Shown here: piece by piece, positions 33,234-52,857 of the stretch | How positions within the stretch are numbered: the first letter of the stretch is position 1 | How the letters are laid out: the number at the start of each line of letters is the position of its first letter | Source of the DNA: Dermatophagoides farinae | Taxonomy: Eukaryota > Arthropoda > Arachnida > Sarcoptiformes > Pyroglyphidae | Assembly (NCBI RefSeq): GCF_024713945.1 | Contig: NC_134679.1 | Span: forward strand, 625,001-689,000 | Direction: 5' to 3' | Length of the DNA stretch: 64,000 nt | Notes under the pieces: model-generated | Database searches by the model: none | Seen by the model: only the letters and a program-made list of their open reading frames with translations | What the model was told of the DNA's origin: nothing | Program-made: the position numbers and the translations under genes

Positions 33234-34498
33234 ATGGTAAAAATAAACGAAACTACCACCAGCAACAGCAACGATTATCATCATCATCATCATCATCATT
33301 CACAACAACAACAACAACATGGTAATCGACATAAAGATGAACAAAAATGTAACAAAAACAATTGTTATTGTTATGATGGCTGTAAACAACCACCACTACC
33401 GCCACAGCAACAGCAACAATCATCATCATCATCTTCATCTTGGCGAAAAAAATGTCGAAAAAATTTTTATTTTTATCTTACAATCATTGTAATGATAATA
33501 ATAAATACATTATACATTCGATTCGTTGCATTAGAATTGATCAAATCCATTGGCATTGGTGTATTGATTATATCGCAGATTTTATTTGCACAAATTCTGT
33601 CATATTTAACGGCAACAGCATGTACAGATCCTGGCATTATACCACGTGCACAAGGTTATGAAGCAATATCCGTACAAAAAGAGATACGTAAATTATTATT
33701 ATCATCATCAACAACGGCTAAATCGAATTCAAAAAAATCGATAAAAAAACAAAATTCACCACGTAGTTTTTCTCATTCACCATATGGAAAATTATCAACA
33801 ATATGGAATGTGAATAAAAATCGTTTCAAAATGATTACCAAACCATTGATTATAAATGAACAATTTTTTCGACAAAAATATTGTTATACATGTCATTTTT
33901 TTCGTCCACCACGTTCATCACATTGTTCCGTATGTAATCAATGTATTGAACGTTTTGATCATCATTGTCCTTGGGTTGGTAATTGTGTTGGTAAACGAAA
34001 TTATCGGTCATTTTATTTTTTTCTATTATCACTTTCGGCATACGGTATATTTACAAGTGCCAATGAAATTGCTTTCATTTTTATTGGTATGTACAAATGA
34101 AACGAACAAAAAAAAATGACATTTATATTACCACTCACCTCATTGTTTCTCGTTGTTTTTTTGTTTTTGTTTTTGTAGAACACCAAAAAATTCCTTCATT
34201 TCTTGTCATATTTCGACTATCACCAGTTGTATTGGCATTATTATCGATCAATATAATGATTATATGGTCAATTTTAGGCTTGTTAGGCTTTCATACATAT
34301 CTGTTGGTGACCAATATGACCACCAATGAAGATATCAAACAAACATTTGTTGGACGTCAACAAATAGAACAATCAAAATCATATGACATTGAATCAGGTT
34401 CAGGTGAATCGATTGAAAATCCTTTTAGCGATGGTTCAGCATATGGTAATTGTACAAGAACATTATGTTCATCTCGTTCGACGACATATATTATTTGA
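33234..34498 (+). CDS. ZDHHC: DHHC protein S-acyltransferase, ZDHHC9/14/18 clade
   Basis: Exons 33234-34086 and 34179-34498 give 390 residues. The N-terminus has His, Gln and Ser homopolymers. TM1 (about 78-100) and TM2 (about 105-126) are followed by the TDPG motif at 131-134. The Cys-rich domain (about 215-262) ends in [20 protein letters not shown], with catalytic Cys245. TM3 (about 258-285, split by the intron) and TM4 (about 300-325) follow. The cytosolic [11 protein letters not shown] matches the TTxE motif, and [13 protein letters not shown] resembles the NPYS...NC tail of ZDHHC9/14/18. Family members palmitoylate cytosolic-face cysteines at Golgi or plasma membrane. A Lys/Ser-rich insert separates TDPG from the DHHC domain. 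It is divergent from the secreted-protein gene. A poly(A) signal lies at 34743-34748. Confidence 0.93.
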
Positions 34499-35391: not shown

Positions 35392-37109
35392 TCATCTATA
35401 AATCGGCCTGTATAATAGAATGATAATTATCGAATGGATAGCGGATGACCACCACCACCACCATGATGATGATGGCCTAATTGATGATGATGAACCATTT
35501 GATCTTTTTATTGAATAATATTGACCACCACCACCACCACCACCAACATCATTATCTAGGTCATAATCTGTATTCATTTTATTACGATTATTATTGTTTA
35601 TCATAATCTGATGATGGCGATTATGTGGATGATGATGAGATGGTGGCTGTTGTGGCTGTGATGATGGAACATTCATACGATGGTGATGATGAATTGGATT
35701 ATTATTACGATCATTTATTATTGGATGATAATGACGATTATGACTTGACCATTCAATTTTTGCTTGATTTTTATTTTCATTTGGTTGTTGTTGTTGTTGA
35801 TGATGATTATAATCACCATCATTATGATGCTGTGATGGTGGTAAATTCATTAATTGATCATCCGTTTTGTGGTTATGATCGACAGTTCTGTTGATGGGTA
35901 TGGCAATTGCTGGTGGCAGTGTTGATGATGATGATGATTGTGGTGGTGAAATTGTTGACGACGACAACGTTGAATGGTTGAATTCATCCAAATGGCTACA
36001 ACGATTAATCCAATATTGACGCCTTAATCTTTCAATTGTTCCAGTGGCTTTCAATTCACGTATTACTTTATTGAATGATTGAATTAATGGTGAACCTTTT
36101 GGCAATGCTATAGCAAATCTTCTTGGATACAATGAACGTGTATCATATAACATTGTCAGATTACAATAAATACCGGTCAGGTATTCAGCAAATGTTGATT
36201 CCACAATGAATGCATAACGTCCTGCATTGACACGTTCAAAACCTTCTTTAGCCGAACGTACCAATGCATCGGGATTTCGAAACATCCATTCAAATATTTT
36301 TCTAGCTATTGGATCACGATGTTTTGATAGATGAAAATATGTAGCACCAGTTTTATATGTACCATATGTAAGAAGATGCTGTCTCTCAGTTGGCGGCAAC
36401 TCTTGTCGATGATTAATCTCATTTAATGTTACTAAATCTTCCAATGTACGTAAACCGACAGCATCATCACGTCGAATTATGGCGGCCAATTGATTTTCAA
36501 GAAAAGCATCAGTAAAATCAACATAACGTTTACGTGCATCCGTAACAGTCAAATCGGCAATAGCAAAATCGGCTCTCTATATTACACATATAAATAAATA
36601 TATAATCATCATATCACGCAAACAAACAAAAGAAAACGAATGAAAAATAAAAAGCCCATAAATAACGATTAATAAATAAATATAACTAGTAAGGTCAAAC
36701 GAATCGAATCAAAATCACATTAAATTATTATACTTACATTACGAAAAACTTCGCCAATCATTCCGTTGATATTATTACCATTATATTCAGTACCATATTT
36801 ACCATCCGGTGAAAAATACAAACGATATTCAAAGCCAACTTTTTTGGCAATCAAATTCATCAGATCAACAACAAAACCTTCATATCGATCATTGATACGA
36901 TCAGCATATGGCCAATTCTATGTATTTATATTTGTAAGAAAAAAAAGAGAGAAAAAAAAAAAAAACACCACATTAACAATACGAATGCAACAAGTGCGTG
37001 TATGTTTTTTTAGATAAAGAAAAAAAAATTGATTCAAGAATTCAACATCATCATCTTATTATCGATTTATTCGATTTGATTTGATTGCGTTTTTTTTCTA
37101 AGTTGTTGC

Positions 37110-37140
<31 letters not shown>

Positions 37141-38960
37141 AAAAAGCGAATAATTTTCTCGCCTTTTTTTTCTTCACGAAAAAAAACTGACCAACAATTT
37201 GAATTGGCCACGCAATTCTTTTTTATTGCTTTTTTTTCTGGTTATTGGTGTGTACACTTTTCGGCTCGGGTACACTTGTTTGTTTATTTGTTTGATTATC
37301 GCCTTTGACATTTGGGGGTCATGGTCTCTTTTGCTCTGTTTGTGCGTGTGTGTGTGTCTAGAAATATTTCTCTTTGACCAAATAGAATTTATAGACAAAT
37401 TCATAAACAAAAAAAAAAAAATTTTTTTCTCACTCGACCTTTCATTTCACACTCACACACACACACACACCATTATCATATAAACAATGATGATAATGGT
37501 GTGGCCATCTGAAATCATCAAAAAATCGTCATCGAAAAAAAAACGAAAATCTTGTTATTTAGTGTGGTCGGTTATCATCATCATCATAAATGTTTATTGT
37601 AGTTGCTGTTTGCATCAACAGAAAAAAATGGCCAATTTTCGTTTTTTTATTATTTGTTGCTGGTTTTTTGTTGTTGTTGTAAATTTTTATGACCATATCA
37701 TCAAACAACAACAAACAATTCAGTGAATAAACACGGATTACAAATCCATTTGCGCGTTTGCCAATTTTTTTTTTATTCAATCGAAAAAAAAAATTACCAA
37801 AAACAAAACGAAACACAAAAAAAATGAATTTACATTTGCACCTCACACACTCCTTGCGCACAAACTGGGTAAATTATTTGCAAATTTTTTTTTTATTTTA
37901 TTCAAATTATGATGATGACTATATGATAATATGCATTGTCCATATTGATTAGGCCATATATGCACATGCATACAAAGGAAAAAAACATTTCGATAATTAT
38001 ATAGTTTCTCTCGCAGAAGAAAAAAGAAGGAACCAATTTTCAAATTGAAAATTGACGTTTTCCACCAAAAAAAAAAAAAAAAAAAATGTGTCAATCTTCC
38101 ACCCTAAATAATAATGACCAATTTTCATTTTTTTTTTCTTTCACCCAACTAATGATTTCGTGATCAAAACAATTTTTTTTATCGTTTGTGAAAGAAAAAA
38201 AAAATTCTTTATTCACATATTAAATACCGAAGACATCGCGTGTCATTGTGGCTATGATGAACGAAAAAATTAATCGATCACAATTTTTCATCATCAAAAT
38301 CGATTTTTGAAAATTATTCATCAAAACGAATGAAAAAAAAATGAATGGTTGAATGATTACACACACACACACACACTTGAATATATAAAGTCGTTATATT
38401 GATGATTAACAATCGATCGATGAAAAAAATGAAAAAAAAAATCTTAATCATCATACACCAACGCACCCGGATGAAAAAATCATTGAAATATCCGTTGATT
38501 TTTTTTTATTCATTATTGTTTTTCATGTGTCACGCAATGGCATTCAATTCAATGAATGATTCATAATCAAGTTGATTTGATTATTAATTAATCGAATAGA
38601 AGAAAAAAAACAATGATGAAAATTGTCATTAAAGGTAAAATTGTTCAGTCAAATCATAATTATTATATATATGGTGGCCTAACATTTGAATAAAATAGGA
38701 AATTCCCTTTTTTTTGTTTGTTTGTTTGTTTGTTTGTGACCTCAGTAATGACTTGAAACTTTTGAAATTTTTAAATAAACGATCAAAACAAAAAAAAAAC
38801 TTACCCGAAATGTTACACCTCTTAATAGTGGATAATTTGGTTTTGCATACACCATCGATTGTTGTGCTAAATTCATTATGATTATAATGATTGGAATGAT
38901 CTGTGTAATCATCATTCTTGACGATAAAAAACAACGATAATGATGACTTATCGATGACAT
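35392..38960 (-). CDS. pore-less iGluR-like ligand-binding protein 1 (S1-S2 without channel)
   Basis: Minus-strand exons 38805-38960, 36738-36917 and 35392-36576 give 506 residues. A signal peptide (residues 1 to about 39, MVYA|K) leads straight into S1, with no amino-terminal domain. S1 shows RYEGFVVDLMNLIAKKVGF, NGMIGEVF, RADFAIADLTVTDARKRYVD and FTDAF. R127 sits where iGluRs bind the ligand carboxylate. Only about 17 residues later S2 begins (LRTLEDL...TYGTYKTGATYF; T191), then YAFIVESTFAEY (E238), YCNLT and YWINRC, the conserved cysteine pair (C250, C305). The usual TM1-pore-TM3 block is missing within one continuous exon. TM4 is replaced by a His/Asn/Gln-rich tail ending in WWWWWSSAIHSIIIILLY and five more residues, a possible membrane anchor. 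Predicted extracellular amino-acid-binding protein, not a channel. The ligand is unknown. Confidence 0.88.
36918..38804 (-). other. 1.9-kb intron of the first pore-less iGluR-like gene
   Basis: A long intron compared with the 54-161 nt typical nearby. It splits the start of S1 (GVTFR|NWPYADR) in phase 0. It contains (TTG)n near 37101-37140, (GT)n near 37345-37357, (AC)n runs and poly-A/T. S1 is continuous across the splice, so no exon needs to be hidden in it, and I see none. Confidence 0.75.
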
Positions 38961-50944: not shown

Positions 50945-52857
50945 TCAAAAACTGATCATTATTGTATAGATGATGAAACAGGATAAGTTCACAAAGGAAA
51001 ATGTCGATGATAATGATGAATTTTCTTGAAAATCAGTCATATTATTACTTGAAAAATGGTCATTGAGATCAGGAAAATCATTTTGATGTTGTGCTTGCAT
51101 TATTTGTTGTTCACGTTGTTCACATTGATTATACCAATGTTGATCAATAATCGATTCTAATCTGCCAGTTTCATCAAGATATTCTAATGATTTTTCGAAA
51201 TAACCAAAAAACGATGAATTATGTGCCAATGCAATGGCATATTCAAGCTGAAAATCGTAACCAAAACTTTTAACATTTTCCGTTCTGGCTGTAATCACAT
51301 GAAGATCACAATCATTAGCGGCAATTAAATCTAATCGCACATTATCCGATACTAATGCATAATCACGTTCCGATTTTACTAGATTTACGGCCACATCCAT
51401 TTGCTAATAATGAAATGAAATGAAATTAAGTCAATTTGAGCAATCAATCAAACAAACAAACATACAGCAATACTATATGGTAATAGATGATAAACCAATG
51501 GATTACGTGATGTTTTAAAATAACGATCAGCCATTGATCCTTTGATTACGATACGTTTACTACGTTGTAATATTTCACGTAAATCGTCCGTATTATTATT
51601 ATGGCCATGGCTATTATTATTTAATAATGATGATGATGATTTTCGTATCAATACGGCCAATTTGGAACGCATAAATGGTCGTGTAAATTGAACAAATTTT
51701 TTCCGTTCCGATGTTATTTCCATATCGGCAATGATAAAATCAGCATTCTAAGAAACAAAAAGTATTAACAAAATTATCAGGTCATTTTTCTTTATTCCAC
51801 CTAAAAAAATAGATAAATCGATCATCATCATCAAGTTAATTGCTGAAGCAGCTAAAAACAGCTCAATTAGCCATTTGATCTAGTTTTATTTTACGATAAT
51901 CTTTAGCTTTGTTTCTTTTCATTTTTTTGGTGCAATATCGAAAATTTTTTTTTCCTATTCTTCCAATCATTAATCAACTATATATCCATGTAATACTACG
52001 ACCTTGGTGGTCGATAATCATCAGCAGTGAATACACACACACACACACACAACACAAATATTCGGCCATTTATTTTATAATGGCCAAATAATCAATGTTT
52101 AAATATAAACATCTACTATAGCGCAACAAAAAAAAAAAGTAAATACCGGATTTCTGTGTGTGTCCGGAAACAACATGCATGTAGTATGTATATTTTTTTT
52201 TAATTTTATTTACAATCGTGGTCAGACAAAGAAAGAAAAAAACCACCTATAGCCAAACAAAAAATTGACCATATGATGTATGTATGTGTTCAATGTATGT
52301 ACAATCAACCAACCAATCGAACCATAGACATTATGGTCTTGCCTATCAACATAAACAAACACAAAATGTTGTTTGCACGAATAAAATATGAATGGACAGA
52401 ATTCACTGGATGACGATAATGATGATGATGATCATAGAAAGAGCAAAAAAAAAACTTACATTCTCATAGATTTCACCAATCAATCCTTGTGGTATAGTTT
52501 CACCGATTTCACCACCATAAATTGCTTCAGGCAATGTTCGTAATTGATAGCTAAATTGGCCAACATCACTTATTTCGGTTATTAATTCATGAAAAAAACT
52601 TTCATATATATCTGAACGTGGATGATTTGGCTGTTTAATTCCATAGATTTTGACGATTTCAGAATTATTTTTAATAATTAATTTCCAATTAAATAAGAAT
52701 CAAAACAAAACAAAAAATAAAAAATACGTACCACTAAAGTAACACCATTCAAATGAAGTGAATTGATTTTTGATGAAATCGTGATTATTAAAATTGTGGT
52801 CAAGATCATCATCCATTTGGATAACGATCTAATTAGTGGCCAGATCGATGATGACAT
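50945..52857 (-). CDS. pore-less iGluR-like ligand-binding protein 2, possible GPI anchor
   Basis: Minus-strand exons 52732-52857, 52460-52630, 51466-51747 and 50945-51403, all phase 0, give 345 residues. The signal peptide (WMMILTTILIITISS core) is followed at once by S1: LHLNGVTLV, IPQGLIGEIYENNADFIIAD, then EITSERKKFVQFTRPFM, with R114 in the ligand-carboxylate position. A short Ser/Asn-rich linker replaces TM1-pore-TM3, again inside one exon. S2 follows: IVIKGSMADRYF, DYALVSDNVRLDL, CDLHVI and HWYNQC. The usual S2 glutamate is Asp213; the cysteine pair is kept. The last 25 residues (small Ser-rich segment, then FSFVNLSCFIIYTIMISF to the stop) look like a GPI-attachment signal. Introns after GVT(xx) and before NADF match the paralogue at 35392-38960; the third intron is unique. 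Predicted extracellular ligand-binding protein, ligand unknown. Confidence 0.85.

Follow-up and report, generated by a model that had tools for sequence, protein, structure and literature searches.

In molluscs and annelids, the acetylcholine-binding protein (AChBP) is a soluble homologue of a nicotinic receptor domain that is secreted from glia, and a role as a suppressor of synaptic transmission has been proposed for it and is itself disputed (PMC3423370). The mite genes described here resemble it as the ligand-binding domain of a channel without the pore, their secretion being predicted; they differ in that AChBP is pentameric and of an unrelated fold and receptor superfamily, and in that the mite family is known from sequence alone. 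Among ionotropic glutamate receptors (iGluRs) a comparable layout is found in the engineered S1S2 constructs (PDB 5ehm, 3u92, 8blj), in which S1 is linked shortly to S2, whereas the mite gene is natural, has a putative signal peptide and a tail of its own, and occurs in seven diverged copies. Bacterial solute-binding proteins of family 3 (GlnH etc.) have the same clamshell fold family, are extracellular and lack a pore, and their model SBP_bac_3 matches the mite genes; the latter nevertheless lie far below the bacterial model cut-offs, carry animal introns and show kainate affinity. The KaiR1D-type kainate iGluR (Drosophila CG3822, known as KaiR1D) has in common with the mite family the ligand-binding domain, an IADLT motif with Asp at the position of P478, the disulphide cysteines of S2 and, in the related channels of the mite genome, the position and phase of an intron. 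The mite family differs from it in lacking M1, the pore loop, M3 and the ANF domain, and M4 is represented at most by a short C-terminal hydrophobic stretch. Residues are numbered after GluA2, in which the positions used include Y450, P478, T480, S654, C718 and C773.

We found no description of a natural pore-less animal iGluR in the open-access literature, in keeping with the statement of an earlier sequence-only reading of this DNA that it knew of no such animal family. The fold is known, and a natural, pore-less, receptor-derived family in animals is new as far as this literature was searched. We put at about 0.72 the probability that the gene at the centre of this study, gene A, is a member of a family in which the iGluR ligand-binding domain stands alone and acts as an extracellular amino-acid binder in the manner of AChBP.

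The window, the whole stretch of DNA analysed, comprises 64,000 nucleotides of the Dermatophagoides farinae genome. Of seven ML-domain matches in this genome, the best protein is closest in the PDB to Der p 2 and Der f 2 (108 and 106 bits) but differs from both, as would suit a relative of the dust mites. Gene A lies on the minus strand of the window in three exons (38960-38805, 36917-36738 and 36576-35392, in window positions), and the spliced protein of 506 aa begins with a putative signal peptide, followed by the iGluR ligand-binding domain (S1 and S2) and a low-complexity tail. Splice sites were assigned by eye from the DNA (GT-AG, phase 0), and the signal peptide was judged by eye and from the hydropathy of the N-terminus rather than with a dedicated predictor. 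The features are as follows.

38805..38960, minus strand: exon 1 of gene A, with start codon, hydrophobic N-terminus (putative signal peptide) and first S1 strand, ending in RGVTFR; GT donor, phase 0
36738..36917, minus strand: exon 2, S1, NWPYAD...GEVFRN; AG acceptor and GT donor, phase 0; PF10613
35392..36576, minus strand: exon 3, with the end of S1, the short junction, the whole of S2, the low-complexity tail and the stop
36547..36549, minus strand: T122 (position of GluA2 T480)
36532..36534, minus strand: R127 (GluA2 Arg485, carboxylate-binding; role from PMC6307864)
36439..36513, minus strand: S1-S2 junction, 25 residues lying between F133 and D159, at the site of M1, pore loop and M3 in channels
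36340..36342, minus strand: T191 (GluA2 Thr655), with G189 the glutamate-type selectivity pair
36199..36201, minus strand: E238 (acidic residue 705 of GluA2)
36163..36165, minus strand: C250, first cysteine of the conserved S2 pair
35998..36000, minus strand: C305, second cysteine of the conserved S2 pair
35395..35448, minus strand: C-terminal hydrophobic stretch, possibly a GPI signal or tail anchor (weak)

The sequence-only reading had given the gene the span 35392..38960 and the strand correctly. In the spliced protein, R127, T191, E238 and the cysteine pair C250/C305 stand at the positions it had claimed. Its description of an iGluR-like protein without a pore also held in Pfam, where the gene A protein scored 94 bits with Lig_chan-Glu_bd and, over residues 60-300, 62.7 bits with SBP_bac_3, and showed no match to the pore family Lig_chan. 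The tail (35395-35997, minus strand) is made up of runs rich in His, Asn, Gln, Ser or Gly, which track simple DNA repeats; it is a putative coding part that may be translated only partially. Downstream of gene A and on the opposite strand lies an exon of a DHHC palmitoyltransferase (33234-34100, plus strand; PF01529, 96.8 bits), an ordinary neighbour.

A phmmer search of the PDB with gene A matched iGluR ligand-binding domains over the whole length of the protein (E = 1.2e-32). The top scores were 116.6 bits for GluD1, 115.7 for Drosophila CG3822 and 115.1 for GluK3, with AMPA receptors at about 113 bits, values that do not separate the delta, kainate and AMPA classes. With a profile of seven related genes (see below) the scores rose to 193.7 bits for GluK4, 193.4 for CG3822, 189.8 for GluK3, 176.5 for GluD1 and 171.2 for GluA2, and the best E value against a solved iGluR ligand-binding domain was 3.7e-56. 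A chance resemblance is excluded by these values. Structure prediction, which had been proposed as a check, was uninformative: AlphaFold2, given only 200 aa from exon 3 and no alignment, returned a meaningless, all-helical model with a mean pLDDT of 40.3.

Considering that SBP_bac_3 covers residues 60-300 and that bacterial models of the GlnH type also match weakly, we examined whether gene A might be a bacterial periplasmic binding protein gained by horizontal transfer. The best bacterial model reached only 51.8 bits against its cut-off of 303, PF10613 outscored SBP_bac_3, and the best 60 PDB matches were all iGluRs. The gene also has introns in common with animal channels. Taking these results together, we rejected a bacterial transfer, which we regard as scarcely credible.

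The genome was then searched with the gene A protein and the candidate loci were read. As a result, we identified seven pore-less genes, two of them in the window (A and G, contig C3) and five on contig C4. Gene G, a more diverged paralogue, occupies 52809-50945 of the window on the minus strand.

52732..52809, minus strand: exon 1 of gene G
52460..52630, minus strand: exon 2 (S1), its acceptor being the least certain splice site among the seven models
51466..51747, minus strand: exon 3 (end of S1, junction, start of S2)
50945..51403, minus strand: exon 4 (remainder of S2, tail, stop)
C4:2092k: gene B
C4:2089k: gene C, on the strand opposite to that of the adjoining gene B
C4:2798k: gene D
C4:3460k: gene E
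C4:3379k: gene F

Pairwise identities among the seven range from 23 to 50%, and both S2 cysteines are kept in all of them. In five protein searches of the same genome, with the best candidates scored, no eighth member was recognised. Three loci among the 49 PF10613 matches had been picked because they showed no obvious companion in the first listings, and were set aside: two of them (L055 and L062) have long hydrophobic stretches after S1 and look like divergent channels, and no S2 was seen on the strand read in the third (L066). Next to gene E there is a helical, His-rich frame (L014:2904-3539, plus strand) whose match to the ZrgA zinc uptake family stays below the cut-off (21 bits against 27.4).

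We measured the junction in each gene as the number of residues lying between the Phe of the DFT motif and the Asp of the EDL motif. It amounts to 25 residues in gene A against 23 in all four solved S1S2 constructs compared, while the same landmarks are 143, 143 and 144 residues apart in three pore-bearing receptors of the mite genome; gene A lacks about 118 residues, which correspond to the M1-pore-M3 block. The junctions of the seven genes are 25, 25, 37, 29, 25, 27 and 33 residues long. Lig_chan was absent from all seven proteins (Pfam, E 0.01), and PF10613 and SBP_bac_3 matched every one of them. In the wider genome, none of the 35 pore-family matches listed fell at the seven loci, the nearest being about 15 kb from gene E. 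The only one on the contig of gene A was about 2.3 Mb distant, so that at this sensitivity there is no pore exon near gene A. Likewise, none of the 46 ANF-domain matches listed for the whole genome was at any of the seven loci, with none on contig C4 and three on C3, about 2.7 Mb off. With respect to the parts of a channel iGluR, the family thus has S1 and S2 and lacks both the M1-pore loop-M3 block and the ANF-type domain. An N-terminal domain of this type is also absent in many IRs.

As only one assembly is at hand, the short junction of a single gene might have arisen by a deletion in the assembly or by a missed pore exon. However, S1 and S2 of gene A are joined within a continuous 394-codon frame of exon 3, and a short junction inside an open frame recurs at seven separate and differing loci with no pore match near. 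The seven paralogues rule out an assembly deletion, and artefacts of this kind are hardly conceivable as the explanation. Two points of the sequence-only reading are borne out here, the joining of the halves inside one continuous exon and the likeness to crystallography constructs; as far as the DNA allows, neither the hidden pore exon nor the assembly deletion that it had named as grounds for abandoning the claim was encountered. Its central proposal was that an animal receptor had given rise to a natural S1-S2 fusion, and the seven paralogues, the shared introns, the shared pocket residue and the profile scores support it. We are highly confident that the family, its loss of the pore and its animal origin, as read from these sequences, are genuine.

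Concerning the ancestry of the family, intron 2 (GEVFRN|RADFAI in gene A) was found in phase 0 at the same place in six of the seven pore-less genes, D being without it, and also in the four kainate-type pore-bearing genes checked (donor in four, acceptor in three). In at least three other pore-bearing genes (C5:3208k, C2:4162k and C9:1777k) the frame runs through this point uninterrupted. Intron 1 has counterparts in two of the four kainate-type channels checked. Asp at the position of P478 is present in all seven pore-less genes, in 7 of 15 pore-bearing genes of the same genome and in CG3822, and is absent from GluK3, GluK4, GluD1 and the other 8 of the 15. In maximum likelihood trees the seven genes form one clade, with supports of 99.1/97 (25 rows) and 99.8/100 (24 rows), and an AU test rejected trees in which the earliest branch, D, was forced among the pore-bearing receptors (p 0.0017 and 0.0002). 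These trees took in 15 (then 14 and 13) pore-bearing genes of the genome, covering part of its IR-type genes; K_C1_4104 was dropped for having too few columns (26 to 25 rows) and K_C1_7621 for its extreme branch (24-row tree). The best tree sets the family, with weak support, beside long-branch NMDA-like and other divergent genes and outside the kainate group; placement with KaiR1D was no more than not rejected (AU p 0.125). We infer that the position next to the long-branch NMDA-like genes is a case of long-branch attraction. The shared place and phase of the intron, the Asp shared with the KaiR1D group and the profile scores point to an ancestor somewhere among the animal kainate-class receptors. 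One pore-bearing receptor, at C2:283k, has an exon that begins at the same intron and continues through the pore into S2, which would make an in-frame deletion within one exon the simplest route to the pore-less form. The channel at C2:283k (L051) and that at C5:688k (L048) are near-identical and of the KaiR1D type, and their short branches on different contigs indicate a recent duplication.

We next considered the ligand pocket. In iGluRs, Arg485 and the acidic residue 705 fix the backbone of the amino acid, so that their presence suggests an amino-acid ligand, and Gly653/Thr655 mark glutamate whereas Ser/non-polar residues mark glycine (PMC6307864). Arg485 is kept in six of the seven genes and the acidic residue in all seven, gene A having both. 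The Gly653/Thr655 signature is kept in A, B and E, while C has Ser/Ile and D has Gly/Asn. Gene F is without Arg485, and G keeps the Arg and Asp; the selectivity positions of F and G could not be aligned with confidence. T480 is kept in four of the seven genes (it is replaced by Glu in C and G and by Tyr in F) and T655 in three of seven, so that glutamate binding cannot be a function common to the whole family. Judged from these residues, A, B and E look glutamate-type and C glycine-type, and F, lacking the Arg, may bind something else. The pocket has therefore diversified within the family. Genes C (2089k, L012) and B (2092k, L010), with predicted pockets of the glycine type and the glutamate type, respectively, are arranged head to head about 2 kb apart.

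The loss of the Arg in F and the variation of pocket residues might also be taken as signs that these genes are decaying relics or pseudogenes of receptors. The sequences as a whole argue against this: all seven have open spliced frames and retain their cysteines at identities of only 23-50%, and the order of identity by codon position was 2 > 1 > 3 in 21 of 21 pairs, the order seen in proteins under selection, with a small margin for the most distant pairs. We therefore regard decay as very improbable.

In terms of location, a hydrophobic N-terminus was found in all seven proteins (12-residue maxima of 2.43-3.78), and the proteins are likely to be secreted. The N-terminus of gene A is hydrophobic as the sequence-only reading had stated, its signal peptide as such being putative. 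A C-terminal hydrophobic stretch, perhaps a GPI signal or what is left of M4, occurs in five of the seven (A, D, E, F and G; B and C are without it). As a control, the ends of 749 arbitrary ORFs in the AT-rich window were examined; 259 of them (35%) passed the same hydrophobicity threshold, and the binomial probability of five or more among seven was about 0.05. This being near chance, we rejected a firm claim of GPI anchoring, and tethering by the C-terminal stretch is only suggested. The proposal of a secreted or anchored binder thus fits in its first part, with the N-termini and the pocket residues of gene A in agreement, and its anchor lies close to what the control would give.

Taken together, the family would have arisen, and would most probably act, as follows. 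The ANF domain of an ancestral kainate-class gene, probably KaiR1D-like, would have been lost, and M1, the pore loop and M3 would have been removed by an in-frame deletion within a single exon, after which the pore-less copy would have been duplicated. The products would pass through the secretory pathway and work extracellularly, B and C as free proteins and A, D, E, F and G perhaps tethered, capturing an amino acid by closure of the clamshell. Without a pore they cannot pass current, and they might buffer, carry or present the ligand as AChBP does for acetylcholine. We somewhat favour the view that a kainate-class receptor in this way gave rise to a whole gene family whose products bind amino acids outside the cell with diverging ligand specificity, which would be the first natural counterpart of AChBP in the glutamate-receptor superfamily and a reversal of the pore-insertion step. 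The buffering or carrier role itself we propose tentatively, at slightly less than even odds.

The main rival to a role as buffer, carrier or presenter is that the proteins are chemosensory carriers, whose diversified pockets would take up amino acids or small molecules from the surroundings in the sensory organs, in the manner of odorant-binding proteins. The divergence of pocket residues between paralogues whose fold residues and cysteines are kept would agree with this, as would the absence of odorant-binding-type proteins from mite genomes described in a trombidid mite paper (PMC6275457). On the other hand, A and B keep a glutamate-type pocket, and we consider a chemosensory function rather unlikely. 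Another possibility is that the proteins dock on channel iGluRs through the dimer contacts of the ligand-binding domain and tune gating as auxiliary or dominant-negative partners, for which speaks that they are of the same class as channels of the mite genome. The assembly of iGluRs is, however, normally driven by the ANF domain, and none is present near the pore-less loci; a function of this type seems improbable.

If glutamate is bound outside the cell by these proteins, mites would possess a means, undescribed in the open-access literature searched, of buffering or carrying either an excitatory transmitter or a chemical cue. The iGluRs are thought to have arisen by insertion of a pore into a periplasmic-type binding protein, and the family would represent this step run backwards in an animal. 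AChBP has come to serve as the principal soluble substitute for nicotinic receptors, and the mite genes would supply naturally soluble receptor domains, with pockets that diverged under selection. Table 6 of PMC4930577 includes kainate-like predictions of short length (298, 357 and 465 aa among others) from the scabies mite Sarcoptes. Further genes of the pore-less kind may wait in existing genomes, since surveys that require the pore motif would miss them: one major iGluR survey left out sequences in which fewer than four of the residues of SYTANLAAF were present (PMC6307864).
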